The notes under the pieces are model-generated. The model had not been told where the DNA came from and searched no databases. It saw only the letters and a list, made by a program, of their open reading frames with translations. From positions 1-25,280 of IMG/VR virus record IMGVR_UViG_3300042448_000868: DNA of 25,280 nucleotides, one strand, 5' to 3'. Each line of letters begins with the position of its first letter. Within the stretch, counting starts at the first letter, position 1. This DNA comes from a virus. Of the stretch, positions 5,505 through 24,556 are shown one piece after another. Position numbers and translations under genes: made by a program.

Positions 5505-6488
5505 ATGTTTATCGCTATTGAAGGCTCCGACGGTGCTGGTAAAAGCTCATTGATTGAGGCGATCAAGACTGAGCTGTCTACTCAGCAGCCAGATCTCCAG
5601 ATTACTGATCATCACAAGAGCAGACCGCCCGAGGAAACTCGCGAGTGTCTTCTTTACGAATACGCAACAAGTCTCGAAAACACAGATCTTTATACGTCAA
5701 CGCACATAGCAGACCGCTGGCATTGGGGCGAAAGAACCTATGCACCTATCAAGCGTCCTCACACTAATACCGACGGCTATGGCCTTCTCGGTAAGGCAGG
5801 CTGGCGCTGGGTAGAACTGTTTATGCAGTCACGCGGAATGGCTCAGTTTTTGTTATTCCAAAAGCTCGATGTAATCCGTGAGCGCGTCACAGAACGTGGC
5901 GATGACTACATTGATTCGTCAGAACTTGAGGCAATTTACAATGCGTATGTAGAAACATCTCAGGTTGCTATTCTGGCTGAGACAATTATGCCTGGCAACA
6001 CCGGTCTTGATAGTCTTCCGCAATTTGCGCGCCATATTATTGATGTAGCACGCGTGGCAGCCAAACGTGCCGAGTTCCTTCGGGCGTATCCGAACTACAT
6101 TGGCTCAGCACGACCGCAGCTCTTGATTGTAGGCGATGACAGAAGCGGTCACAATGAGTTCGCCAGCGCAACTAACCTGCCATTTGTGCCTACGGCCGAA
6201 AGTGATGCCGAGTTTCTTCTGAACTCTCTACCTGAAAATCTTTGGAAGCACGTCGGAATTGTCAGTACGAATGGTACTAGTGCAGATGAGCTATCAAATC
6301 TGCATAAGCAACTTGGCCGCCCAATGATTGCAGCTCTTGGCATTAAGGCAGAACGTCTCATTCTAAAAACTACAATCTACGTAAACGATTACGTCGGAAT
6401 TCGCGACCCGCAGTACGTGTGGAGCGACGCGCGTAATGAATATGGTTTACAGCTTCAGGAAATCAGCAAGAGAAAGAATACCAAATGA
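5505..6488 (+). CDS. Deoxynucleoside monophosphate kinase (thymidylate-kinase fold) with C-terminal glycosylase-like domain
   Basis: A protein of 327 residues. Residues 1-200 are a thymidylate-kinase-type P-loop domain: Walker A GSDGAGKS at 7-14, an ADRWHWGERTY substrate segment, and an arginine/acid-rich lid at ERGDDYID (about 130-137). It should transfer phosphate from ATP to a dNMP. Residues about 203-315 are not part of standard thymidylate kinase (about 210 residues). They read RPQLLIVGDD, PFVPTAESD, STNGTSADEL, GRPMIAALGIKAE and RDPQYVW, an order that recalls the uracil-DNA-glycosylase superfamily (VGD..., PFV, ALG..A, final xP motif). That assignment is tentative. Its stop overlaps the next gene (ATGA), which encodes a dCMP hydroxymethylase-like enzyme, so the substrate could be a modified dCMP, as for T4 gp1. 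Confidence 0.85.
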   Translation: MFIAIEGSDGAGKSSLIEAIKTELSTQQPDLQITDHHKSRPPEETRECLLYEYATSLENTDLYTSTHIADRWHWGERTYAPIKRPHTNTDGYGLLGKAGWRWVELFMQSRGMAQFLLFQKLDVIRERVTERGDDYIDSSELEAIYNAYVETSQVAILAETIMPGNTGLDSLPQFARHIIDVARVAAKRAEFLRAYPNYIGSARPQLLIVGDDRSGHNEFASATNLPFVPTAESDAEFLLNSLPENLWKHVGIVSTNGTSADELSNLHKQLGRPMIAALGIKAERLILKTTIYVNDYVGIRDPQYVWSDARNEYGLQLQEISKRKNTK

Positions 6489-7342
6489 GTGCATCTGCAA
6501 TCGAAATCGAGAATGGTGTCAACGGGTACGTAGACCTTGTTCAGTATGTTCTAAATAATGGCGAAGAGGCTGCTCCTCGCGGCATGAAGACACGCGAAAT
6601 TGAAGATGCGGTTATTCATATTGAAGATGTGTATCACACGCTGCCTTTAAAGGTTGGTCGTGGCACTGTCCCTGGCATCGGCGCAGTTGAAGCTTGCCAG
6701 CTTCTGTCTGGTACAAGTTTCCCTAAGACTGTTATTGCTGTCGGCCCTCAGTTTAAGAACTACACAGAAGACAATGGCGTATTCCATGGCGCGTACGGGT
6801 TGCGCACAAATGGCCAATATGACGCAGTCATTGACAAGCTCAAAAATGACTCCGACTCACGGCAGGCCGTTGTAACAATTTGGAATCCAGAGTACGACAA
6901 TCAGCCAAGCAAGCGCGACTACCCTTGCACTGTTCTTCATCAGTTCCGTATTCGCAACAACAAGCTCAACATGAGTGTCTACATGCGGTCAAACGATGTG
7001 TGGCTTGGCGCAGCATACGACTTCTTTCAGTTTACTCAAGTACAGATTGCATTGGCATCAGTTCTTGGCATCGAGCCTGGTAAGTACGCCCACCACGCTG
7101 GTTCACTTCATATCTACGAGCAACATTATGAAGCAGCTGAGAAGCTCACAAAGACCAATGAACTTGTCGACATCCCAAGCATTACCGGTGCAACATGGCT
7201 TGATGTTAAGGCGTCTGCAATGGCAGCTATCAACGCCGTCGATAACGGTACGATTCTTCCACGACTCAATGACGCAGAGGCATGGCACGCCAATGCTATG
7301 ATTACTGCGATTGAGAAGAACAAAAACAAGAAGGTAGACTAA
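6485..7342 (+). CDS. Thymidylate-synthase-fold deoxycytidylate (hydroxy)methylase
   Basis: A protein of 285 residues with the thymidylate synthase fold but the residues of dCMP hydroxymethylase. The catalytic cysteine, Cys148, is followed by Thr (DYPCTVLHQF), where thymidylate synthase has PCH. The base-reading asparagine of thymidylate synthase is Asp179 here (MRSNDVWLGAAYDFFQF). Cys148 and Asp179 have the same numbers as in T4 gp42. MRSNDV and GSLHIY also match the T4 enzyme (MRSNDV, GSLHVY), whereas thymidylate synthase has GD.HIY. Asp at this site selects cytosine over uracil in the family. Expected product: 5-hydroxymethyl-dCMP, or 5-methyl-dCMP if it acts as a methylase; sequence cannot separate these. 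It overlaps its neighbours by ATGA and TAATG. Automatic annotation would probably call it ThyA. Confidence 0.8.
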   Translation: MSASAIEIENGVNGYVDLVQYVLNNGEEAAPRGMKTREIEDAVIHIEDVYHTLPLKVGRGTVPGIGAVEACQLLSGTSFPKTVIAVGPQFKNYTEDNGVFHGAYGLRTNGQYDAVIDKLKNDSDSRQAVVTIWNPEYDNQPSKRDYPCTVLHQFRIRNNKLNMSVYMRSNDVWLGAAYDFFQFTQVQIALASVLGIEPGKYAHHAGSLHIYEQHYEAAEKLTKTNELVDIPSITGATWLDVKASAMAAINAVDNGTILPRLNDAEAWHANAMITAIEKNKNKKVD

Positions 7343-7527
7343 TGAGTGATTTTGACTTTGAAGAATCATCACCGCTGAAGGCAGCTTCTGTTGCAATGCA
7401 CGAATTGTACTCAACACTCAAGGATGCTGGTTTTTCACGACGCGACTCGTTAGAATTAGTTGCAAAGATCCTTACAGGCAGCATCTCAGATGCAATTGCA
7501 AACCAACAACAAGAAGACGATGAATGA
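7342..7527 (+). CDS. Small unknown acidic protein
   Basis: A protein of 61 residues, acidic at both ends, with a central helical stretch (MHELYSTLKDAGFSRRDSLE) resembling small proteins common in actinophage replication operons. No function is known to me. Its ATG overlaps the upstream stop (TAATG), with AGAAGG at 7330-7335 as ribosome binding site, and its stop overlaps the dCMP deaminase start (ATGA). This tight coupling and the even codon use support a real gene. Confidence 0.75.
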   Translation: MSDFDFEESSPLKAASVAMHELYSTLKDAGFSRRDSLELVAKILTGSISDAIANQQQEDDE

Positions 7528-8009
7528 CAGATACCAGACCATCTTGGGCTGAAACGTGGCTAGCTGTAGCCGAAACAATTGCTAGAAGATCGCGATGCTC
7601 ACGGGCACAGATGGGCGCAGTAATTGTCTCTAAAGACAATCATGTTGTAGCAACTGGCTACAATGGCCCAGCTGCTGATTGGCCAGAGCAAGGCGAGTGC
7701 ATGAATTGGTGCGAGCGAGCCCAAGGCAAAACAGCTCTTGATAATCTCTATGACGGCTGCCCAGCAATTCATGCTGAAGCAAATGCACTTTTATACGTTG
7801 ATAGATCGCGCAGTCTTGGCGGAACTATTTACATTGTCAGTGCACCGTGTATGCAGTGCGCCAAGCTAATCTCAAACTCAGGCATCGCTCATGTAGTCTG
7901 CAGATTAAAGAAAGCTGACATGCACCGAGACCCATACGGTGTGATAGAATACCTAATCCGATGCGGTATCGAAGTGACAACAATTAAGGACAAAGATGTC
8001 GACAACTGA
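7524..8009 (+). CDS. Deoxycytidylate (dCMP) deaminase family protein
   Basis: A protein of 161 residues, usual for the family. Zinc ligands and catalytic acid are clear: HAEAN with His83 and Glu85, and PCMQC with Cys109 and Cys112. The N-terminal ATGYNGPAADW segment matches the dCMP deaminase nucleotide-binding loop. The enzyme turns dCMP into dUMP, the precursor of dTMP. The TS-fold enzyme two genes upstream appears to use dCMP too, so the two would compete for one substrate. A separate thymidylate synthase is not in this window. ATGA overlap with the upstream gene and a 14-base overlap with the polymerase gene place it in the operon. Confidence 0.88.
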   Translation: MTDTRPSWAETWLAVAETIARRSRCSRAQMGAVIVSKDNHVVATGYNGPAADWPEQGECMNWCERAQGKTALDNLYDGCPAIHAEANALLYVDRSRSLGGTIYIVSAPCMQCAKLISNSGIAHVVCRLKKADMHRDPYGVIEYLIRCGIEVTTIKDKDVDN

Positions 8010-9819
8010 TTTATCAAGTGTTCAACTACATTTAGTTGATAACGCTCAAAAAGCAACTGAGTTTCTTGCATGGCTAAGCGAACGCCGTCCGCATAACGCT
8101 CTTGCAGTAGACACTGAAACTGGTGAGCTCTCAGGCAACCCACGTACAGACGCTTTTTCTCCGTGGCATGGGCGCCTTCGTCTTGTGCAGGTTGGTGATG
8201 GCCAGCAGGGTTGGTCAATCCCATGGGACGAATGGAAAGGTGTCTTCTACGAAGGCATGGACAAGTTTGACGGCCCAATCATTTGTCATAACATTGCGTT
8301 TGAAGCCCGCTGGTTTGCTGTTCAATCTCGATGGGAATTGCCATGGCATCGCGCACACGACACAATGATTATGGCGCACATTATTGATCCGCTTGGTTCC
8401 GGCGCGTTAAAGCGTCTTGCTGCGTTGAATATTGACAGCCGCGCTGTTGCATTGCAAGACACACTTGATACTGAACTTGCTAAGAATGGTTGGACATGGG
8501 GAACTGTTCCTGTGAACTTTCAGCCGTATTGGTCATACGGCGCGCTTGACTGCGTGTTAACCACTCGCTTGTGGGAAATGTTCTACAAGAAGTGCGGACC
8601 CGATGGCCCATACAATCGCCCATACGAACTCGAGATGGCAACACGCAGGATCGTTACTCGCATGGAACTAAATGGCGCACGAGTAGATCTTGACTACTCG
8701 AGGAGAAAGTTTGACGAGCTATCCGCGTACACAGAATCTGTAAAAGTCTGGGCAAGACAGAAGTATGGCGGAACTTCAATTACAAGTAATCAACAACTTG
8801 TGCGTTTGTTTGAAAGTCTTGGTGCGGAGATTACAGACTTCACTCCTTCTGGTCAAAAGTCATGCACAAAAGATCAGCTCAAAAAACTTCTTCTTGCTGA
8901 GAACAAGGAAGTTGCAAACCTTGCCGATACTGTTCTCAAGCAGCGCAAGGCGGACAAGCTTGCCAACACGTACTTCTCTAACTTCTTGACTGAGTCTATT
9001 GACGGTGTTGTTCATCCGTCAGTTCGTACACTCGGTGCGCGAACATCTCGTATGTCTATTACAAACCCAGCACTTCAAACATTGCCTAAGGGTGATGATG
9101 TTGTGCGTCGCGCTTTCATTCCCAAGGATGAGAATCATGTCATTGTAACAAGTGACCTTGACCAGGTTGAGTTCCGCATGTTCGCAAGCTTGTCACAAGA
9201 TGAAAACCTTGTCAACATGTTTAACCTTGCTGACTCGACAGGGTCTGACCCATTCACTGAGATTGGTCGTGAAGTTTACAATGACCCGTCAATGTCAAAG
9301 TCTGACAAACGCCGTGGTCTTATCAAGAGTATGATTTACGGTCGCCTCTACGGTGCTGGAGTGGCTAAGCAGGCGCTTACCGCTGGTGTTCATGAGGTAC
9401 AAATGAAACAGACATCGGACGCATTCGATGGTCGTTTCCCTGGAATGTCACACTTCCAACGCCAAATTGAAGACATTGGTATGCGCCGATTCAAAGGCGA
9501 AGGTCAGGGCTACGTCTACACATGGACTGGTCGTCGCATTCCTTGCGATGATAACCGAGTATACACGCTGGTGAATTACCTAATTCAAGGTGGAGCAGCT
9601 GAGGTGTTCAAGAGCAACCTTGTAAAGCTTGATCAAGCAGATTTGACAGAGTTACTCATCGTGCCAGTGCATGACGAAATTGTTCTTAACGCGCCGCGTA
9701 AAGATGCTGAAGAAATCATGCGTACTGTCAAGGAATGTATGACAACAACCGAAGGCTGGGCAGTTCCGCTTACCTCTGGAGTCGATGGTCCAATGGAGAC
9801 CTGGGGAGATAAGTACTAA
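7996..9819 (+). CDS. polA: Family A DNA polymerase with 3'-5' exonuclease
   Basis: A protein of 607 residues, the phage DNA replicase. Exonuclease motifs: VDTETGEL (Asp39, Glu41), CHNIAFEARW (about 98-106) and YGALD (181-185). Polymerase motifs: A, SDLDQVEFRMFA with Asp387; B, RRGLIKSMIYGRLYG (439-453); C, VPVHDEIV with His559 and Asp560. There is no 5' nuclease domain, as usual for phage polymerases. Tyr448 in motif B aligns with E. coli Phe762; Tyr here is the T7-like state and has been linked in viral surveys to virulent lifestyles. Motif A has DLDQVEFR instead of the common DYSQIELR. AAGGA at 7986-7990 precedes the ATG. The stop overlaps the RuvC-like gene (TAATG). Confidence 0.95.
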   Translation: MSTTDLSSVQLHLVDNAQKATEFLAWLSERRPHNALAVDTETGELSGNPRTDAFSPWHGRLRLVQVGDGQQGWSIPWDEWKGVFYEGMDKFDGPIICHNIAFEARWFAVQSRWELPWHRAHDTMIMAHIIDPLGSGALKRLAALNIDSRAVALQDTLDTELAKNGWTWGTVPVNFQPYWSYGALDCVLTTRLWEMFYKKCGPDGPYNRPYELEMATRRIVTRMELNGARVDLDYSRRKFDELSAYTESVKVWARQKYGGTSITSNQQLVRLFESLGAEITDFTPSGQKSCTKDQLKKLLLAENKEVANLADTVLKQRKADKLANTYFSNFLTESIDGVVHPSVRTLGARTSRMSITNPALQTLPKGDDVVRRAFIPKDENHVIVTSDLDQVEFRMFASLSQDENLVNMFNLADSTGSDPFTEIGREVYNDPSMSKSDKRRGLIKSMIYGRLYGAGVAKQALTAGVHEVQMKQTSDAFDGRFPGMSHFQRQIEDIGMRRFKGEGQGYVYTWTGRRIPCDDNRVYTLVNYLIQGGAAEVFKSNLVKLDQADLTELLIVPVHDEIVLNAPRKDAEEIMRTVKECMTTTEGWAVPLTSGVDGPMETWGDKY

Positions 9820-14601: not shown

Positions 14602-15804
14602 ATGCGAATCTTAATGACAGGTTTCACTGCGCTTCAGATTAACACTGAAAGACGCACAATTCAAAAGATCGACGTACCCGCTTCAATTGTAAAGGCACTT
14701 GAAGAATGCGGGCACGAAGTTGACTGGAGACGAGTTACTCCAGGCGAAGATTTATCTATGTACGACGTTGCATGGGTAAACCTCGCACCACTAAACTCAC
14801 TCAACGGGCGCCAAGGTGCAATGGGAGCACTGTATGTGCTAGGCTCTGGTGTCCCAGCCGTTGGGTTTTTTGACGACTGGCAATTTAGTTCTGTGTTTAA
14901 CGGCTGCCGTGCTTTAAAGAATCACCCAGAACTTCTTTATAAGTATCTTCTTACTGGGCAGCGCGGCGATGAAGGCGCAACATACTTTAGTTACGCAGAC
15001 GCTGAAGCTGCAGTTGAGCGTATTCGTTTGACTGACCCAGAAGGTGCTGCAAAGTGCGGCATCGGAAGATACTTTTTCAACGACACTGATGAAAACATCA
15101 AACAATACGAAGGCCAGCTCGTTGCAGCAGCTACCTCAGTGCTCGAAGAACGCTGGGCGCAGGGAATGATTCCAGCGTGCCCAATGTACTCGTTTGGAGA
15201 TCGTTCGCTTGTTCGTAAGCGTATGCCAGCAGTTATGTCTGGCATTGAGGCACTTGACCCAAGCTCAACCATTTACGACATTCTTGCTACATCTGAACCT
15301 AAGGATGCAAGTCTTAAGGAACGCAAGTGGGTGCTTGGCGCTTTAATGCCACATGATACTTGGCTTGAAAAGAAAAAGCCTGAGTGGCCAGTTGAAATTA
15401 TTGGTAGTCGCAAGCTGATTAAAAAGTTTGGCGGACAGCGTCTTGACAGTGAAGCAGACGTTCTTTCGTTCTACAATGACTACTGGGGTATTCTTTCGCC
15501 TCCGTACCCTCACGCGGGCTCTGGATGGTGGAGGAGCCGGTTTATGTATGCTGCTAGGGTTGGCTCAATTCTTGTAACTGATAAAGGCGAAGGAAACCCA
15601 CTCGGCAAGCCATATAAGCTTACGATTAAAGAAGTAGAAGCTATGAGCGATATCGAACTTGCTGAAGCCGCAAAGGCGCAAGGAGATGCTTTACGCCCTT
15701 ACATGCCAGACTACAGTTCTTTTGTTGAACACTGCAATCGCATTGTTCATCGAGCTCTCGCTGAAGACAAGGGTTTGAAGTTTAACCCAGACGGCACAAG
15801 GTAG
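14602..15804 (+). CDS. Glycosyltransferase-like protein, paralogue 1
   Basis: A protein of 400 residues counted from ATG 14602. A longer frame back to 14464 runs through the Ala/Pro repeat of the upstream gene and across the promoter, so it was not used. The N-terminus MRILMTGFTALQ followed by SIVKALEECGHEVDWRRV and YDVAWVNLAP is the Rossmann opening of a GT-B glycosyltransferase. A conserved C-terminal stretch reads ILSPPYPHAGSGWWRSRF. The next gene is a diverged copy. No membrane segment or secretion signal is present, so it is cytoplasmic. With a dCMP hydroxymethylase-like enzyme in the genome, transfer of sugar to modified DNA bases is an attractive role but is inferred; surface or other sugar transfer remains possible. 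Confidence 0.75.
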   Translation: MRILMTGFTALQINTERRTIQKIDVPASIVKALEECGHEVDWRRVTPGEDLSMYDVAWVNLAPLNSLNGRQGAMGALYVLGSGVPAVGFFDDWQFSSVFNGCRALKNHPELLYKYLLTGQRGDEGATYFSYADAEAAVERIRLTDPEGAAKCGIGRYFFNDTDENIKQYEGQLVAAATSVLEERWAQGMIPACPMYSFGDRSLVRKRMPAVMSGIEALDPSSTIYDILATSEPKDASLKERKWVLGALMPHDTWLEKKKPEWPVEIIGSRKLIKKFGGQRLDSEADVLSFYNDYWGILSPPYPHAGSGWWRSRFMYAARVGSILVTDKGEGNPLGKPYKLTIKEVEAMSDIELAEAAKAQGDALRPYMPDYSSFVEHCNRIVHRALAEDKGLKFNPDGTR

Positions 15805-16817
15805 TGGCTACTGTACTTCTGACGGGTATGACATCTCCGCAATCATCGCGGCGACTTAATTCAAAGTCACTATCATTTGCTGGTGCACTTTCTTCTATTC
15901 TTGAAGAACATGGCCACAGTGTTGATTGGTTGTCACCGTCAGTTTTGCTTACTAAAAAAGATCTTGCTAGCTACGATGCCATAGTTCTTGGCGTTGCACC
16001 AGCATTGAGCATTACGTCTAACAAAGCGTATGGCGTACTAAGCATGATTGATTTGCTCAAGGATGATGACAGACTTGTCTTATTCATTGACGCACCGGAT
16101 CCGTCAAGAATCACTGCCAATCTTCGCGCTGTAGAAAAAGAAAGCGGTAAACTGTTTACTGCGTTTAACTCAATGCGCAAACAGTACGAGCATGTCATTC
16201 TTAATGAAAAAGCAAAGATATCAGTTCTAGGCGGAATTAGTTTTCTTGCGAATAGCGAATGGCCAACTACTTTGTACCCATCTATGCCGTGGATTACAAA
16301 TGAAACAGTCTCTGCTAAACTGCCTGCCGGCGCAGCTAATTCATTAGTTGGCGTATGCGTGGACTCTTACTATGTAGCTGACGGCATACCAAGAATTTCA
16401 CGTGACAAAGTACGACGCTGGTCAGTAGACACAGACGCTACTAAGTGGGCTACGTCTACACTTTCTTCTTTAAGTCTTCCATACGAAGGAATGAAAAGTA
16501 AAAGAAGTGCTGACGATAATGATGTGTTTGATCTCATATCAAAATCTATTGGCTCACTTCTCAGTCCTTCAAAGGACGGGCTGGTCTGGTGGAGTCATCG
16601 CTGGGTTCAATCATTGAATGCGGCTACACCAATCGCCAGTGAATGGCGTGTAACTTCTAAGGTGGGGTCCGCATGGTCACACCTTGCGGCTGGCATTGAA
16701 GAAATGTCATACATTGACATGTATGAATTGGCAGTGTCTCAAAAAGAAGAATTCATCGCGTCGATACCTTCGCGGGATACAGTAAAAGAAAAATTAGAAA
16801 CAACGTTAGGAATATAA
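15804..16817 (+). CDS. Glycosyltransferase-like protein, paralogue 2
   Basis: A protein of 337 residues. The GTG at 15804 shares its first base with the upstream stop (TAGTG), with AAGG at 15799-15802. It is paralogous to the preceding protein: VLLTGMTSPQ matches ILMTGFTALQ, ILEEHGHSVDWLSP matches ALEECGHEVDWRRV, YDAIVLGVAP matches YDVAWVNLAP, and LLSPSKDGLVWWSHRWV matches ILSPPYPHAGSGWWRSRF. The middle is shorter by about 60 residues. The first domain keeps the GT-B-like Rossmann pattern. The tandem copies have diverged strongly, so they may use different acceptors or sugars, or form a heterodimer. No membrane segment is seen. The catalytic role is inferred from the fold pattern only. Confidence 0.72.
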   Translation: MATVLLTGMTSPQSSRRLNSKSLSFAGALSSILEEHGHSVDWLSPSVLLTKKDLASYDAIVLGVAPALSITSNKAYGVLSMIDLLKDDDRLVLFIDAPDPSRITANLRAVEKESGKLFTAFNSMRKQYEHVILNEKAKISVLGGISFLANSEWPTTLYPSMPWITNETVSAKLPAGAANSLVGVCVDSYYVADGIPRISRDKVRRWSVDTDATKWATSTLSSLSLPYEGMKSKRSADDNDVFDLISKSIGSLLSPSKDGLVWWSHRWVQSLNAATPIASEWRVTSKVGSAWSHLAAGIEEMSYIDMYELAVSQKEEFIASIPSRDTVKEKLETTLGI

Positions 16818-16819
16818 AG

Positions 16820-17287
16820 ATGACAGTTCTATTTAACAAGTGGCTTCAAAAGACAATGCAACTTCAGAAAGATGTTTACAACGCAGACTACAGCAAGTTT
16901 CATGGCAACGAGCCAGAAGATCTCAATACATTAATTGAGTACATTCGCTGGAACATGCTTGCGATTGACGATGAACTTGCTGAGGTTCGTCAAGCTATTT
17001 CATGGAAGCCTTGGCAACACGATGAACCATACGCAGACCGCAAGGAAATTGTTAAGGAATGCGTAGATGTACTGCATTTTGTTGCAAACATTCTTTGTGC
17101 CGCTGGCGCAACTGACGCAGAGCTTGATGAAGAGTATCTCAAGAAAATGCAGAAGAATGCTGATCGTCAAAAGAACGGCTACCGAGTTCTTGATGAAGGT
17201 ATGAAGTGTTCAATGTGCTCGCGCGCGCTTGATGATTACGATGTTACTTCTTGTGGTGTCGCGGCTTGCCCGTCTAAGAGGCCGTAA
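16820..17287 (+). CDS. All-alpha NTP pyrophosphatase (dimeric dUTPase/dCTPase-like) with zinc-ribbon tail
   Basis: A protein of 155 residues. Residues 35-120 show the all-alpha pyrophosphatase pattern: DELAEV with Glu52 and Glu55, the ISWKPW segment typical of dimeric dUTPases, and EIVKECVDVLHFVANIL with Glu80 and Asp83, which together hold magnesium. MazG, dimeric dUTPase and T4 gp56 dCTPase share this fold. Such an enzyme removes dUTP or dCTP; in T4 it keeps plain cytosine out of DNA. The C-terminal 28 residues contain Cys130, Cys133, Cys145 and Cys150, a likely zinc-binding tail. It follows the two sugar-transferase-like genes after 2 bases. Substrate is not decidable by eye; MazG-like activity is an alternative. 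Confidence 0.75.
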   Translation: MTVLFNKWLQKTMQLQKDVYNADYSKFHGNEPEDLNTLIEYIRWNMLAIDDELAEVRQAISWKPWQHDEPYADRKEIVKECVDVLHFVANILCAAGATDAELDEEYLKKMQKNADRQKNGYRVLDEGMKCSMCSRALDDYDVTSCGVAACPSKRP

Positions 17288-18074: not shown

Positions 18075-19340
18075 ATGTCTGATTTGACATTTATTGACTG
18101 TAATGGACTCGCAGGTTTCATGAGCTACGGCTTTGTGAAGTCTGGTATGGAGATGACCCTCCGCACAGGTACTTTGAACTTTGGCAACCCAGTTGCTGAA
18201 CTCAATAGAAAACACCTTGGTGACAACTGGTCATCGTTCTTCTCAAATAGTGAAGAAGAATGGCCAGTAATGAACGCTGACATTGTTATGGGTTGCCCAC
18301 CGTGCTCCGGTTGGTCGGTGTGGTCTGGCCCTGCCAACCGTGGACCTGAAGCTGCTGCACATGAGCATACGCGTGCGTTTATGCGATACGCTGCTAAGGT
18401 AAAGCCAAAAATGATTATCTTCGAATGCGTACAGCAAGCGTATACGCAAGGCCGTGAAAGTATGGTCAAGTACCGAGACATGGTTGAAGAACTTTCTGGT
18501 AAGAAGTACGACCTGTATCACGTCAAGATGAACAACCTCCAGGTTGGCGGATTCTCATATCGTGCTCGTTATTTCTGGACTGCCGTTGAGCAGGGAATGC
18601 CATTTGGCGCAGTTGCCACGACTCCTGAGAAGATGCCCACAATGATGGACGTCATTGGCGACCTCGAAAATTGTGAGATCATGTGGGAGTCGCAGTCGTA
18701 CAGCGGCGAAGGTACAGACTTTGTTAAAGATCTTCGCAATCAAAGCGGTACGGTAAACGGCCATATGGCAAAGAACAATATGAACTCCACACGCATTAAA
18801 GACATTTTTGACATTGTAGGCAACGATGGTTGGAAGCCGATGATGCCGCTTAACAAAGCACTGCGAAGTGCTGTTGACAAGAACAGTGGAAACTTCCCAC
18901 AGACATGGATTGGTCTTTCTGAAAAGATTATTGAGAATGATTTTTACATGGGTTTCTCAATGCCAAGCCGCTGGGACGGGAACTCATGGGCGCATGTTCT
19001 CACAGGTAGCGCTCTTGATCACGTAATTCACCCTACGCAACCAAGAACCATTACTCACCGAGAAGCCGCAAGAATTCAAGGTTTGCCTGACGACTGGGAA
19101 TTTGTAGAAGCAAAAGGATACTCAGCGTTGTCATCGACTTGGGGCAAGGCAGTTGCTGCACAAGCTGCTAAGTGGATTGGTGATGCTGCTGTTACTGCGC
19201 TGAAAGGCGAACCCAGTGGGCCATCTGGTGAACTTATCGGCGACCGCGAATACTTGATTGATACCGACAAGGGATTCAGCCGTAGCTACGTTGCTAAGGG
19301 CTGGTACCCAAACAAAGCAACCAAGGCTGACCGCGAGTAG
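18075..19340 (+). CDS. DNA cytosine-C5 methyltransferase
   Basis: A protein of 421 residues. Motif I is FIDCNGLAGFMSYGF, motif IV GCPPCSGWS with nucleophile Cys77, motif VI FECV (117-119), motif VIII SYRARYFW, motif IX THREAARIQGLPDDW, motif X WGKAVAAQAAKWI. This is a full set for an enzyme transferring methyl from S-adenosylmethionine to C5 of cytosine in DNA. Motif VI normally reads ENV; here Asn is Cys while the glutamate is kept. The variable region (about 190-320) sets the target sequence, which cannot be read off. The C-terminal 60 residues past motif X are extra. No cognate endonuclease is next to it, so it is probably protective. Its coexistence with a dCMP hydroxymethylase-like enzyme is unusual. 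Confidence 0.9.
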   Translation: MSDLTFIDCNGLAGFMSYGFVKSGMEMTLRTGTLNFGNPVAELNRKHLGDNWSSFFSNSEEEWPVMNADIVMGCPPCSGWSVWSGPANRGPEAAAHEHTRAFMRYAAKVKPKMIIFECVQQAYTQGRESMVKYRDMVEELSGKKYDLYHVKMNNLQVGGFSYRARYFWTAVEQGMPFGAVATTPEKMPTMMDVIGDLENCEIMWESQSYSGEGTDFVKDLRNQSGTVNGHMAKNNMNSTRIKDIFDIVGNDGWKPMMPLNKALRSAVDKNSGNFPQTWIGLSEKIIENDFYMGFSMPSRWDGNSWAHVLTGSALDHVIHPTQPRTITHREAARIQGLPDDWEFVEAKGYSALSSTWGKAVAAQAAKWIGDAAVTALKGEPSGPSGELIGDREYLIDTDKGFSRSYVAKGWYPNKATKADRE

Positions 19341-19354
19341 TCTCGATTACGAAA

Positions 19355-19409
19355 ATTGCATAGTCTGTTGTTATAATCAAAACAACGACACAAGGACAGA
19401 CTATGCAAT
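19355..19409. repeat. Perfect 14-bp inverted repeat spanning promoter and start codon
   Basis: ATTGCATAGTCTGT (19355-19368) is repeated in perfect inverted form as ACAGACTATGCAAT (19396-19409). The 27-base interval holds a -10 box and most of the ribosome binding site. The right arm contains the start codon ATG 19403. Confidence 0.75.
19369..19377 (+). promoter_or_regulatory. Extended -10 promoter of the glycosylase gene
   Basis: TGTTATAAT, the TG extension plus perfect TATAAT, lies between the arms of the inverted repeat, 26 bases before ATG 19403. Transcription would begin near 19384, so the RNA would include only the right arm. The ribosome binding site is AAGGA at 19392-19396. Confidence 0.6.
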
Positions 19410-19891
19410 CATTTCTTACTAGCACTGAGTCATTCGAACTCACTGCGTCTCATCTAGACAACAAGCGTCTTCACAAGCAGACCTTAGAAGCCTGGCAGTG
19501 CCTTCTCACAATGTGTGAGCTAGACCCTGACGGCAATGATCGTAAACCCAAGGGCTGGGCTAGTCATCCTGTTGTCAAAATGTGGAGAGGCCATGAGACA
19601 TTACTTGTTTCATATATCTCCGCTACGTATTTTGAGTGGCGTTCACGTGGCTATAAGTCTACGCTTCTTGAAAAGACCTATCGCACGTACGACCGTGCTG
19701 TTGATCTAGGCCGTATCTCGTCTGAGCTAACTCTCCCTTTTTGGATGCAAGATTGCCAGTACTTTGAAGATCTTTGTTCTACCCACCGCACAGCGCTACT
19801 TGTCAAAAACTATGACTGGTATAAGCAATTTGGCTGGGCTGAAGATTCAGGCGTTGTGCCGCCGACATACGATTACTTGTGGCCGGTTTAG
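19403..19891 (+). CDS. Pyrimidine-dimer DNA glycosylase family (Pyr_excise, MSMEG_6728-like)
   Basis: A protein of 162 residues. MQSFLTSTESFELTASHLD, then NKRLHKQTLEAWQCL, HPVVKMWRGHETLL, FEWRSRGYKST and a terminal DYLWPV follow the Pyr_excise family as found in actinobacterial MSMEG_6728-type proteins and actinophages. The family is named after T4 DenV, which removes UV-induced pyrimidine dimers, but this branch is distant from DenV and its activity is less certain. It has its own promoter inside an inverted repeat and stands alone between two regulatory regions. DNA repair, or handling of modified bases, are the possible roles. Confidence 0.8.
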   Translation: MQSFLTSTESFELTASHLDNKRLHKQTLEAWQCLLTMCELDPDGNDRKPKGWASHPVVKMWRGHETLLVSYISATYFEWRSRGYKSTLLEKTYRTYDRAVDLGRISSELTLPFWMQDCQYFEDLCSTHRTALLVKNYDWYKQFGWAEDSGVVPPTYDYLWPV

Positions 19892-20981: not shown

Positions 20982-22049
20982 CTAGTTAAGGTATTCAAGA
21001 TCATACCAGCCCTTGTCCCACAAAGACTGCAATCTTGTAAAGTATCTATCGTACATCTTTGCTACAGCGTCAAGTCCGTATCTGTCTTTAGCGTATTTGC
21101 TAATAGCAGCACGATCTAAGCTTTTTGCATCTTCTGCCGCATTTATAAACTCAAGTAAAGTGTGACAGCGGTACCCGGTTATGCCGTCAATGACAGTTTC
21201 GGTAAACGCGCCCCAGTCGGTAGAGATAATCGGAGACCCGCAAGCCATTGCTTCAATCGCCACCGTCCCAAAAGGTTCAACGTAAATAGTTGGGGTAAAA
21301 GTAGCAATTGCACCGCCCATAAGTTTAGCGCGTTCTTCTGTGCCTACAACGCCGACGTATTCGCCGTACTCTGGCGGTGTGCCTTGCCCGGCGATAATAA
21401 GACGCTTGCCAAGTTGTTTGCAAACGTCTACGGCAATTTGATAGCCCTTGCGCTCAATCAAACGCCCAATGTACAAGTAGTAGTCGCTTGACTCTTCTTG
21501 AAGTGGAAAGTCTTTAGTATCAATGTAGCTTGGAATAACTGTGTCATAGAACTTACCGTCAAGAGCATGAGGGTCTGTAACTTTTGAGCCATAGCACGAG
21601 TGCATCCAAGCGTACGACTCAAAGACTTTGTACTGCGCAAATGAGCCGCCATAGCCAATACCGAACTCAACGCTTAGTTCCTGTGGAAATGCATCTGCAA
21701 TTGGCTTTGACGCGTAGCCAGCAATTAAACAAATAAAGTCTTTGTGTTCAAGACGTTGTTTAATTCCAGCAGTAACGTTTGCATTAAAGTTTTGCCAGTG
21801 CGGAAGATTCCAATCAAATGACGCTGCAGAGTAGTGACTATTTCCAACTGCAGCTAAACGTTCTTCTTCAGTAATACACGTAATGTGCTCATCACAAGGA
21901 GCTTCATTAAACTCGCCGGCGTATAAGAAAACAGCGTGCCCAAGACTTTTCATCATGATGCAGAACTTGCGGACTTTTTCTGTGTACGCACATGCGGTGA
22001 AATCTAAAGTGGTATTTGTATGCGGTAGACTAACTACGTGAAATCTCAT
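20982..22049 (-). CDS. Glycosyltransferase, GT4-like (GT-B fold)
   Basis: A protein of 355 residues from ATG 22049 (MRFHVVSLPHTN). An in-frame ATG at 22058 would overlap the upstream gene more; 22049 gives an ATGA overlap with its stop. The N-terminal Rossmann domain ends near residue 180. YIGRLIERKGY (193-203) opens the second domain, and EPFGTVAIEAMACGSPII is the GT4 E-x7-E nucleotide-sugar motif. The fold transfers sugar from an activated donor; the acceptor is unknown. It is more classical than the two plus-strand sugar-transferase-like proteins and not obviously related to them. Its GC content (34 of 60 bases in one sampled line) is much higher than that of the halogenase region upstream. 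Confidence 0.85.
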   Translation of the reverse strand: MRFHVVSLPHTNTTLDFTACAYTEKVRKFCIMMKSLGHAVFLYAGEFNEAPCDEHITCITEEERLAAVGNSHYSAASFDWNLPHWQNFNANVTAGIKQRLEHKDFICLIAGYASKPIADAFPQELSVEFGIGYGGSFAQYKVFESYAWMHSCYGSKVTDPHALDGKFYDTVIPSYIDTKDFPLQEESSDYYLYIGRLIERKGYQIAVDVCKQLGKRLIIAGQGTPPEYGEYVGVVGTEERAKLMGGAIATFTPTIYVEPFGTVAIEAMACGSPIISTDWGAFTETVIDGITGYRCHTLLEFINAAEDAKSLDRAAISKYAKDRYGLDAVAKMYDRYFTRLQSLWDKGWYDLEYLN

Positions 22050-22333
22050 TGGCCCCACCAGAAGTGTTTGAGGATAGAAAGACTAGCCAAGACAACCCAT
22101 GTAACGTTAAAAAGGATGATTGTTGGGAGAGTCTTGCGTGTGGATGTCCAAATCAAGGCAACGCTTGAAATGATAGCAAAAATATAAAGCCACCAGAACT
22201 GCTTGCCTAAAAGGAGACCAGGGAAAATAATCGCAATTTTTGTAGCAAAACCCCATGCCTCAACTGTGTTCACACGATTCCAGTAAGTTCTGGAACTCAT
22301 AGTTTTAACGGCGTCAACTATTTTTGATACCAT
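22046..22333 (-). CDS. Small membrane protein, three predicted helices
   Basis: A protein of 95 residues with hydrophobic stretches at about 27-43, 47-63 and 70-88, separated by short basic or polar turns. The first 25 residues are basic and amphipathic. A Trp-rich FWWLY and final HFWWGQ would sit at membrane interfaces. I do not recognise a family. It overlaps the upstream gene by 16 bases and the downstream glycosyltransferase by 4, so it belongs to the same operon and may anchor or supply substrate for the glycosyltransferase; that is a guess. Holin-like function is possible, but there is no lysin next to it. Confidence 0.72.
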   Translation of the reverse strand: MVSKIVDAVKTMSSRTYWNRVNTVEAWGFATKIAIIFPGLLLGKQFWWLYIFAIISSVALIWTSTRKTLPTIILFNVTWVVLASLSILKHFWWGQ

Positions 22334-23073
22334 TTTTTGTTTTTTGCTTCCGAATCGACTTTGATCTTTTTTCGCCTATACGGGCCAGAGGTCCCGCCAG
22401 ACGGAATTATATTCCCAAAACCAAAACCGCGAGACTCGACGTATTTGAATAACGATTCATCTTGAAACACTATGTTTGAAACGTCATCACTTCGTTTGAA
22501 TGGGATTATGTGAAGCATCGGGGTTCCGTATTTAATGGAAAAATCTGTATTTGTTTTTATGTTTAAAACAATATTTATAACATGGTAATAGTCTGTGTGA
22601 ACAACTGCTGGCAGAACATCATAATCAGGGCTTGGTTCCCAGTGAACTGGTAAAACGATGCATGACCACCCCGGCGCTGTCTCAATTCTCCAGGGTGTTG
22701 TTATTTTTGGATATGGCATTGTGTCTAAATTTCTATTTTTAGACACAGGGCATTCTCCTGTTGAGCCAAATGGAAATCCATCTATACTGATGTGTCTTAA
22801 TGGAGGACTCATTTGGTCTATGCGTGACTCCCACATGTTCACTTCAAAATTTGGCCTGAAATAAACATTTGTCCACAGAGGAACAGTAATTCCTGTCGTC
22901 AAATAGTCGCTTACGCCTGCGCACGATCTTATGGAGCCTTGTCCTTTTCTCATTCTTCTAAACCATGAAGGCATTGAAACTTGAGTGTTTATAAATGGAG
23001 GCATCTCCATAAGGCGATTATCTTCTGGTGTTATGCGAATTTCACCAGGTTTAATTTTTTTTCTAGAATTCAT
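22318..23073 (-). CDS. Unknown beta-rich protein next to halogenase
   Basis: A protein of 251 residues. Conserved-looking stretches are PSWFRRMRKGQGSIRSCAG, GITVPLWTNVYFRPN, TTPWRIETAPGWSCIVLPV (125-143), LPAVVHTDYYHVINIVLNI and GTPMLHIIPFKR (183-194). From memory, this order occurs in uncharacterised phage and bacterial proteins of about 230 residues. The beta-strand pattern with a proline-glycine turn hints at a cupin-like barrel, without a visible metal triad. The N- and C-termini are lysine-rich. It overlaps the halogenase gene by 11 bases, so the two are translated together; it may be a partner or process the halogenase product. AT-rich like its upstream neighbours. Confidence 0.72.
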   Translation of the reverse strand: MNSRKKIKPGEIRITPEDNRLMEMPPFINTQVSMPSWFRRMRKGQGSIRSCAGVSDYLTTGITVPLWTNVYFRPNFEVNMWESRIDQMSPPLRHISIDGFPFGSTGECPVSKNRNLDTMPYPKITTPWRIETAPGWSCIVLPVHWEPSPDYDVLPAVVHTDYYHVINIVLNIKTNTDFSIKYGTPMLHIIPFKRSDDVSNIVFQDESLFKYVESRGFGFGNIIPSGGTSGPYRRKKIKVDSEAKNKKWYQK

Positions 23074-24556
23074 CGTCTATTTCGTCTATCTCAAGTAGCG
23101 CTTGACGATGGTCAACAAGTTCGTGAGAGTGTCTACTGTTTCTAATGTCATGAACTTCTTTTGTAACAATTTCTCTAAGACCCATTCTGTCAATAGCAAC
23201 TGATGAAGGGGTGGTTGGAATCAAACCCTGGCCTTGCATGACGTGCACAAAGTGTGGGACATGAAACATCGTGTTATGTTTTCCTGAAATGTCGTACCGA
23301 GATGGTGGTTTTTCTGACCACAATTCAATAAGCTCTTGCAGTTCTGAATTTATCCGCATTTCTGCTTGCGCTTTCCAAAAAGGAGTATCTCTCCTATCGG
23401 AAATGTAGTGAAGACGAATCATCGTCAATATATTTCTCATCATTTCTGTCATGTTTTTATTGTATTTGTTTTGTATTTTTTCATATCCATGTTGATACGA
23501 AGAAAGACTTTCTATTATTGACTTTGCCTGAATGATGCTGCTACCAATACTTGTCGCCTCAAGAGGTTCAACAAAAGACGACGCAAGCCCAACCGCAACA
23601 CAATTTTTTACCCACTGGGTTTCTAAGAACCCGGCGTCAAACTTAAAAGTTCTGGGATTGTCTGGAACTTTGTATCCCGTCAGTTGCTGCACTTCGTTAA
23701 TCGCTTCATCTTGACTTATGTGAGCAGATGAATAAACATACCCATTTCCACGCCGTTCTTGAGTGGGAATTTCAAACACCCAACCGCTACTCATTGCACG
23801 TGCCCGTGTGTACGGCCTTATTTGCCCATTTGGGTCAGACTCCGTTGGGAATGCTATTGCGGAATCAGCAAGCAAGTACGGAGAAAAACTAGTCCACTTA
23901 GTATTCCCAAGAGATGTCATCAATACTCTGTTAAAACCACTAGCGTCAAACCAAAAGTCGGCAGAAATGCATCCGCTTAATTCTGTATCAACAGAGTCAA
24001 TACAACCATTTTCAAAGTTAAGATTAACTTTGCTTACAGAATCATCAATAAATCTAATCATCCTGCTAAAGCACAAGCTTGTCAAATAATCATTAAGTTT
24101 AAATGTGTCAAAATGAAATTGATTTGTTGTTCTATGCAGATTTTGTCTTGCTACTTGATTTCTTACTAATCCAATACTCGCTGTTTGAGAAGTGATTAGT
24201 TTTTCATTTTCTATAAAATGCAAGTAAGATGCAAATAGTCCGTGCGCAAAAATTTCATCAGGTCCGCTAACGCTATGAAAATAGTCCGGAATCTTCTCTG
24301 TCCAGTTTTCAAACCTAATCCCGTACTTGTGCGTTGCTGAAGTGTTTGAAATAAGTTCTTCTGTTGGGATATTGCATAGGTCCATAAACTGACGCCAATG
24401 CTCAGTCGAGCCTTCGCCAACACCAATGATTCCAATTTTTGAAGACGCTACGATTGTTATTTCTGAGCTTGGGAACGCTTTTCTTAGTGTTAACGCTGTG
24501 ATCAATCCAGCAGTACCAGAACCAACAATGCCAATAGACATATTTTTTGTTTGCAT
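23063..24556 (-). CDS. FAD-dependent halogenase (tryptophan-halogenase family)
   Basis: A protein of 497 residues, close to family length. The FAD site is GIVGSGTAGL (GxGxxG at 12-17), followed by IGVGEGSTEHW. Lys77 in ATHKYGIRFENW matches the catalytic lysine of PrnA-type halogenases (Lys79), which carries the active halogen. EPLEATSIG (330-338) is the conserved acidic segment. The WxWxIP signature is altered to WVFEIP (259-264), keeping IP but losing the second Trp, then RRGNGYVYS. These enzymes use reduced FAD, oxygen and halide to halogenate aromatic substrates. A cyanophage relative, VirX1, has been shown to iodinate small aromatics. AGAGAG before the ATG supports the start. No flavin reductase is seen nearby. 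Confidence 0.88.
   Translation of the reverse strand: MQTKNMSIGIVGSGTAGLITALTLRKAFPSSEITIVASSKIGIIGVGEGSTEHWRQFMDLCNIPTEELISNTSATHKYGIRFENWTEKIPDYFHSVSGPDEIFAHGLFASYLHFIENEKLITSQTASIGLVRNQVARQNLHRTTNQFHFDTFKLNDYLTSLCFSRMIRFIDDSVSKVNLNFENGCIDSVDTELSGCISADFWFDASGFNRVLMTSLGNTKWTSFSPYLLADSAIAFPTESDPNGQIRPYTRARAMSSGWVFEIPTQERRGNGYVYSSAHISQDEAINEVQQLTGYKVPDNPRTFKFDAGFLETQWVKNCVAVGLASSFVEPLEATSIGSSIIQAKSIIESLSSYQHGYEKIQNKYNKNMTEMMRNILTMIRLHYISDRRDTPFWKAQAEMRINSELQELIELWSEKPPSRYDISGKHNTMFHVPHFVHVMQGQGLIPTTPSSVAIDRMGLREIVTKEVHDIRNSRHSHELVDHRQALLEIDEIDDEF

Follow-up and report, generated by a model that had tools for sequence, protein, structure and literature searches.

A predicted dCMP 5-hydroxymethylase, labelled thymidylate synthase, in a putative cytosine-modification operon of actinobacterial viruses

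Does a viral gene whose relatives are labelled thymidylate synthase (TS) in databases serve dTMP synthesis, or does it produce a modified cytosine nucleotide? The question is raised by an ORF at positions 6485..7342 (+ strand) of the window, i.e., the whole stretch of 25,280 nucleotides analysed here (positions 1 to 25,280 of IMG/VR virus record IMGVR_UViG_3300042448_000868). The ORF starts with ATG, encodes 285 aa and matches PF00303 (E=7e-28). An initial annotation had described its product as a TS-superfamily protein with a dCMP hydroxymethylase signature, and both the location and the superfamily assignment proved accurate. We refer to it below as a predicted dCMP 5-hydroxymethylase.

The key residues of the protein are Glu69, Tyr104, Arg126, Asp145, Cys148, Thr149, Arg168, Ser169, Asn170, Asp171, Asp179, His209 and Tyr211. 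In an alignment with T4 gp42, E. coli ThyA and SPO1 gp29, Glu69 corresponds to E. coli Glu58, and the pair Cys148 and Thr149 falls on T4 Cys148-Thr149 and on E. coli Cys146-His147. Asp179 aligns with T4 Asp179 and with ThyA Asn177; the alignment thus places Asp, and not Asn, at the base-reading site, as the initial annotation had claimed. It had also pointed out that both key residues carry the same numbers as in T4, which is correct but partly luck, since indels differ between the two proteins. Of the two motifs said to match T4 gp42, MRSNDV is identical, whereas GSLHIY differs from GSLHVY of T4 by a single conservative change. Asp145, the water-activating residue in T4, had been overlooked. 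This site is occupied by Asp here, in T4 and in SPO1, by Leu in E. coli ThyA and by Glu in the RB69 type. MilA, a Streptomyces CMP 5-hydroxymethylase (PDB 5jnh), too has Asp three positions ahead of its Cys.

Conservation was counted in 78 IMG/VR relatives, which form 37 clusters at 90% identity. Asp145, the catalytic Cys148, Thr149 and Asn170 are present in 78/78 relatives, and Ser169, Asp171, Asp179, His209 and Tyr211 in 77/78. The single exception (L077:602-1297) is a frame-shifted copy of the gene, resulting from either an assembly error or a broken gene. The full residue set was recovered in 36 of the 37 clusters. The same residues are found in four named actinophages, i.e., Gordonia phages GMA2, Phendrix and Forza, and Actinomycetia phage DSL-LC01; the Gordonia homologues, which are 38-39% identical to the window protein, keep the signature residues. 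Because the set is kept across 77 intact IMG/VR relatives and at such a distance in Gordonia phages, sequence comparison indicates that it is not a product of chance.

The premise that an Asp reading the base confers selectivity for cytosine is well supported for the TS superfamily (PMC5175136, PMC8670742, PMC6400193). The N177D substitution moves the preference of E. coli ThyA to dCMP, while T4 gp42 uses Asp179 and MilA uses Asp186 (PMC8670742, PMC6400193, PMC5175136). A genome-phenome analysis of phage metagenomes found that, among TS genes, two positions best indicated modified cytosine, namely the base-reading site and the residue following the Cys; Asp marks TS genes from contigs whose cytosine modification was established by experiment (PMC8670742). 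An ordinary thymidylate synthase needs Asn and Cys-His, as in E. coli ThyA. The dUMP hydroxymethylase SPO1 gp29 is 32% identical to the window protein and resembles it in having Asp at -3 and in being devoid of Ser94, yet it is of the uracil type, with one Asn that reads the base and another that follows the Cys. In contrast, all intact relatives have Asp179 and Thr149. Furthermore, the window protein missed all cut-offs of the NCBIfam ThyA equivalog models, giving sub-threshold scores only. The database label, the adjoining dCMP deaminase gene, whose product would furnish dUMP, and the failure to find ThyX in 11 IMG/VR relatives, some of which are fragments, are all compatible with an enzyme acting on dUMP. 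However, Gordonia phage GMA2 also encodes ThyX, and hence does not depend on its TS-like protein for dTMP. Both an ordinary thymidylate synthase and a dUMP hydroxymethylase of the SPO1 gp29 type were therefore rejected, and we consider such a function extremely unlikely.

Asp179 alone cannot separate a methylase from a hydroxymethylase, since L. casei TS becomes a dCMP methylase through a lone Asn-to-Asp change (Liu & Santi 1992, cited in PMC8670742). The initial annotation had left the product as 5-hydroxymethyl- or 5-methylcytosine. A dCMP methyltransferase making 5-methyl-dCMP, as in Xanthomonas phage XP12, would also be in keeping with the Gly that replaces T4 Ser94 in the window protein. 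However, Asp145 is invariant here and is replaced by Leu in E. coli ThyA; in T4, this Asp activates the water that gives the hydroxymethyl product, and the D145N mutant yields no product (PMC6400193). Among solved structures, the hydroxymethylase MilA is the closest relative, and two linked glycosyltransferases, described below, would require a hydroxyl acceptor. Within a comparison set made up of T4 gp42, E. coli ThyA, SPO1 gp29, MilA and RB69/Rgz1, which includes no natural dCMP methylase, these features favor the 5-hydroxymethyl part of the earlier proposal and make a 5-methyl product improbable.

A third route to modified cytosine has to be weighed, as a homologue from RB69-like phages was recently reported to make 5-hydroxy-dCMP instead of 5-hydroxymethyl-dCMP (PMC13390438). 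An enzyme of this kind in the window would imply a sugar joined directly to 5-hydroxycytosine in DNA. The RB69 enzyme also belongs to the TS superfamily, has Asp179 and the Cys-Thr pair with Thr149, and has partner glycosyltransferases; moreover, distant homologues of the first window glycosyltransferase in T4-like phages adjoin an arabinose-5-phosphate isomerase or a UDP-galactopyranose mutase gene. We derived discriminating features by reading two sequences, RB69 ORF048c and Morganella phage Rgz1_33: both have Glu in place of Asp145, MRSQN in place of MRSND, and Phe in place of Tyr211 (HVF versus HIY here). At all four sites where these two proteins differ, the window family has retained the residue of T4, and none of the RB69-type features is present. 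A 5-hydroxy-dCMP synthase of the RB69 type was rejected on this ground and appears very improbable, leaving 5-hydroxymethyl-dCMP as the best-supported product.

A profile comparison with T4 gp42 and ThyA had been suggested as a check. A family profile built from 23 relatives and compared with all solved chains had MilA as its best match (131 bits, E=4e-37), followed at a distance by the best thymidylate synthase (96 bits) and by the T4 dCMP hydroxymethylase (68 bits). Single-sequence profile scores against T4 gp42, E. coli ThyA and RB69 were roughly equal, so the hydroxymethylase assignment rests on the residues, the MilA match and the gene context. MilA has the Asp at -3, the Cys-Thr pair and Asp at the base-reading site in common with the window protein. 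It prefers ribose and has Ala176 and Lys133, whereas Ser169 and Arg126 of the window protein are equivalent to deoxyribose-type residues (PMC5175136). CMP hydroxymethylase activity of the MilA type was rejected because of these two residues; MilA functions in antibiotic biosynthesis and not in the modification of phage DNA.

The active site of T4 gp42 is the same with respect to Asp145, Cys148-Thr149, Asp179, MRSND and SLH-x-Y. The T4 signature Ser94-x-Tyr96 proposed in PMC6400193 is replaced by Gly102-x-Tyr104 across the whole family. The T4 S94A mutant retains about 25% activity (PMC6400193), and the SPO1 dUMP hydroxymethylase has Ala at this site; for these reasons, we count Gly102 as a departure from the T4 lineage and not as a loss of function. 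In a TS tree, T4 gp42 and the enzyme of Micrococcus phage Kurnik paired with 100/100 support and the window family fell outside this pair; branches are very long, and support is confined to the T4-Kurnik pair and extends neither to the deep order nor to a sister TS lineage. Since Ser94 is absent and the tree excludes the family from the pair, the window protein is best filed not as a gp42 orthologue, but as a separate lineage predicted to function like gp42.

The genes around the predicted hydroxymethylase occur in a single compact operon. In most IMG/VR loci, within the reach of each contig, the order is kinase, TS, small ORF, dCMP deaminase, family A polymerase, RuvC-like gene, helicase, exonuclease, RecA-like gene, ssDNA-binding-type gene, two glycosyltransferases (GT1 and GT2) and MazG. 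The first gene (5505..6488, + strand), which forms a conserved pair with the TS gene across loci, encodes a predicted nucleoside-monophosphate kinase with a thymidylate-kinase-like P-loop domain (residues 1 to ~190; phrog_761 thymidylate kinase, E=9e-14; best PDB profile match 2axp, an SPbeta P-loop protein, E=1e-15), and is a candidate 5-hydroxymethyl-dCMP kinase. Its C-terminal part (6096-6488, + strand) resembles the uracil-DNA-glycosylase (UDG) superfamily: PF03167 matches 9 of 16 homologues (best E=0.0017), though not the window copy itself. The motifs of this domain are LLVGD..., PF.P..GNSG, IVALGR.AE and PHPQYVRR, with PHPQ lost in the window copy. To our knowledge, a kinase-UDG fusion adjoining a nucleotide-modifying enzyme is an unfamiliar arrangement.

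Downstream of the hydroxymethylase gene lies a small conserved ORF of 61 aa with no known function (7342..7527, + strand; homologue in 68 loci), followed by a dCMP deaminase gene (7524..8009, + strand; PF00383, E=4e-19; phrog_174 dCMP deaminase) and a family A DNA polymerase gene (7996..9819, + strand). The latter has an 80% identical orthologue, called DNA polymerase I, in DSL-LC01, a phage of 129 kb from a lake that has been assigned to actinobacteria (PMC10611076). Together with the Gordonia phage relatives, this supports the earlier view of an actinobacterial phage with a family A polymerase. At the other end of the operon, the product of 16820..17287 (+ strand) is a MazG/dUTPase_2-type pyrophosphatase (PF08761, E=4e-11) related to T4 gp56 (27% identity across 118 aa, E=4e-7). 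T4 gp56 is a dCTPase-dUTPase that removes dCTP. The surroundings of the predicted hydroxymethylase would thus amount to a T-even-like toolkit of kinase, dCMP deaminase, gp56-related dCTPase and two tandem glycosyltransferases. Beyond the operon, the orthologue of 19403-19891 in DSL-LC01 (76% identity) is labelled pyrimidine dimer DNA glycosylase. A tryptophan-halogenase-like gene (22046-24556, - strand; PF04820, E=4e-102) is followed by two genes without assigned role and a GT4 glycosyltransferase gene (20982-22058); the matching position of DSL-LC01 is taken by a glycosyltransferase gene and a diverged halogenase gene.

GT1 (14602..15804, + strand) and GT2 (15804..16817, + strand) were identified as predicted glycosyltransferases by structure comparison, which was required because neither gave a usable Pfam match and PDB sequence searches with both found nothing. 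Homologues place the true start of GT1 at ATG 14602, and the longest-ORF start at TTG 14464 is wrong. The likeness of both proteins to T4 beta-glucosyltransferase (BGT) had been noted from sequence ahead of the structure work, and BGT then ranked first for GT1. AlphaFold2 models were built from alignments of the loci, leaving out one row from the annotated phage collection. The GT1 model (pLDDT 82.9, pTM 0.84) has a GT-B fold, and its top two Foldseek matches in the PDB are T4 BGT structures (1j39, E=6.6e-6; 1qkj, E=1.4e-5); BGT occupies ranks 1, 2, 5, 9 and 21, with a TM of only about 0.5. Taken over both glycosyltransferases, the fold matches are moderate (TM about 0.45-0.5). Sequence homology between GT1 and BGT was not significant (hhalign probability 0.3 with one BGT sequence), and hhalign of GT2 against one BGT sequence gave no informative match.

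The GT2 model (pLDDT 93.8) matched GT-B enzymes in the PDB, including LanGT2, the phage HY126 glycosyltransferase and T4 alpha-glucosyltransferase; its nearest match among viral models is a protein of Gordonia phage Phendrix. GT1 and the fast-evolving GT2 are homologous (hhalign 99.7%, E=2.8e-25). In this alignment, GT1 Asp91 pairs with GT2 Asp96, and by eye also with the catalytic Asp100 of BGT. GT2-type genes were found in 16 of 16 relatives tested and GT1-type genes in 15. These models lead us to predict that GT1 is a BGT-like glycosyltransferase that transfers a sugar to 5-hydroxymethylcytosine in DNA. The sugar may vary among relatives, as the corresponding slot of DSL-LC01 includes a diverged GT1, a UDP-galactopyranose mutase (L002:28954-30051) and GT2. 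This arrangement suggests a galactofuranose donor in DSL-LC01 and sugar swapping between relatives.

The module also includes an atypical C5-cytosine DNA methyltransferase homologue (18075..19340, + strand; PF00145, E=3e-22), which is present in 13 of 16 relatives and thus co-conserved. It keeps the catalytic PPC and R-x-R motifs, and its clade is unusual in having CPPCSGWS, E[CS]VQQAY replacing ENV, and an atypical motif I. Among 50,697 phage records, homologues were found only in DSL-LC01, Gordonia phage records and Micrococcus phage Kurnik. Its presence is odd and hard to square with fully C5-substituted DNA, since it should be without substrate if every cytosine carried a C5 substituent. 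Three explanations can be offered: substitution may be incomplete, the protein may act at an early stage or on different DNA, or its activity may be novel.

The first of these options is part of a reading in which the gene does encode a dCMP hydroxymethylase, but cytosine replacement is partial and GT1 and GT2 act on targets other than DNA, e.g., cell-surface or virion glycans. Apart from the retained methyltransferase homologue, this reading draws on other glycan-type genes, i.e., the GT4 enzyme of the window and the UDP-galactopyranose mutase of DSL-LC01, and on the fact that GT-B folds are common. On the other hand, GT1 and GT2 lie family-wide between the ssDNA-binding-type and dCTPase-like genes in a replication operon, and T4 BGT is the top fold match of GT1. 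We consider non-DNA targets with partial replacement unlikely. The last option would correspond to a distinct actinophage system of cytosine hypermodification, in which the own-lineage hydroxymethylase, the kinase-UDG-like fusion, two BGT-like glycosyltransferases and a specialised C5-methyltransferase homologue would act jointly, the last modifying or marking already modified cytosine DNA with no T4 counterpart. As an account of the whole module, this is speculative and doubtful.

A similar module in Micrococcus phage Kurnik bears on the function of the companion genes. Common to both modules are a kinase-like gene, the TS slot and genes for dCMP deaminase, a family A polymerase, a helicase and RecA, together with two glycosyltransferases, MazG and the C5-methyltransferase homologue. 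In the Kurnik module (L111, 16543-32180), the TS slot holds a T4-type dCMP hydroxymethylase, labelled thymidylate synthase, with the full signature (Ser94, Tyr96, Asp145, Cys-Thr and Asp179). The two Kurnik glycosyltransferases, one of them weakly GT25-like, are unrelated to GT1 and GT2. Since a true T4-type gp42 occupies the TS slot of this module, the same companions also accompany an enzyme readily identified as a dCMP hydroxymethylase, which points independently to hydroxymethylcytosine as the purpose of the module. Cultured Gordonia phages likewise carry TS-like, glycosyltransferase and methylase genes. We found no literature on modified DNA in these phages, the GMA2 paper only naming methylases and glycosyltransferases as possible protection.

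From the way the sequences are related, the residues seen in the active site, the order of the genes and the folds predicted for their products, we infer the reactions, the degree of substitution and the sugar as follows: the gene probably encodes a dCMP 5-hydroxymethylase that feeds 5-hydroxymethylcytosine DNA, to which GT1 and GT2 then add sugars. The enzyme would convert dCMP, methylene-tetrahydrofolate and water into 5-hydroxymethyl-dCMP, and the adjoining kinase would begin its phosphorylation toward the triphosphate. Meanwhile, the gp56-like pyrophosphatase would clear dCTP and dCMP deaminase would turn excess dCMP into dUMP, and the family A polymerase would make DNA with 5-hydroxymethylcytosine replacing most or all of the cytosine. 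GT1 and GT2 would add one or two sugars to the hydroxymethyl groups, like the beta- and alpha-glucosyltransferases of T4, and this sugar coat would shield the viral DNA against host nucleases.

The companions are of the same kinds as the gp42/gp56/gp1/glycosyltransferase set of T4: a gp56-related dCTPase, a kinase, dCMP deaminase and two GT-B glycosyltransferases. Unlike in T4, the predicted hydroxymethylase is of a separate TS lineage with Gly for Ser94, the polymerase is of family A, the hosts are actinobacteria, the genes form one compact operon, GT1 and GT2 are without significant sequence match to BGT, the kinase is fused to a UDG-like domain, and there is an additional C5-methyltransferase homologue. 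A dCMP hydroxymethylase with two glycosyltransferases was already predicted in the actinophage LuckyBarnes (PMC6588365), and Asp-type TS genes were known to mark modified phage DNA (PMC8670742). LuckyBarnes is a Brevibacterium phage, a 50.8-kb singleton siphovirus, likened here by description. What is new is that the lineage is separate, that the operon is intact throughout a large freshwater group and has counterparts in cultured Gordonia phages, that residues exclude the route through 5-hydroxycytosine, that the glycosyltransferases form a BGT-like pair and that a methyltransferase homologue is linked.

If this interpretation is correct, hydroxymethylated and probably glycosylated cytosine would be present in a large group of freshwater actinobacterial viruses, as well as in Gordonia phages already in culture, and a key gene of these viruses would be misfiled as thymidylate synthase. 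Asp145, MRSND and Tyr211 would offer a quick sequence test to distinguish makers of hydroxymethylcytosine from makers of hydroxycytosine, and the co-conserved C5-methyltransferase homologue presents a concrete puzzle. These viruses would also be a source of new DNA glycosyltransferases, and their DNA would bear on escape from host nucleases and on the readability of phage DNA by bisulfite and nanopore sequencing. T-even-like DNA modification would, in this case, extend to actinophages with a family A polymerase.
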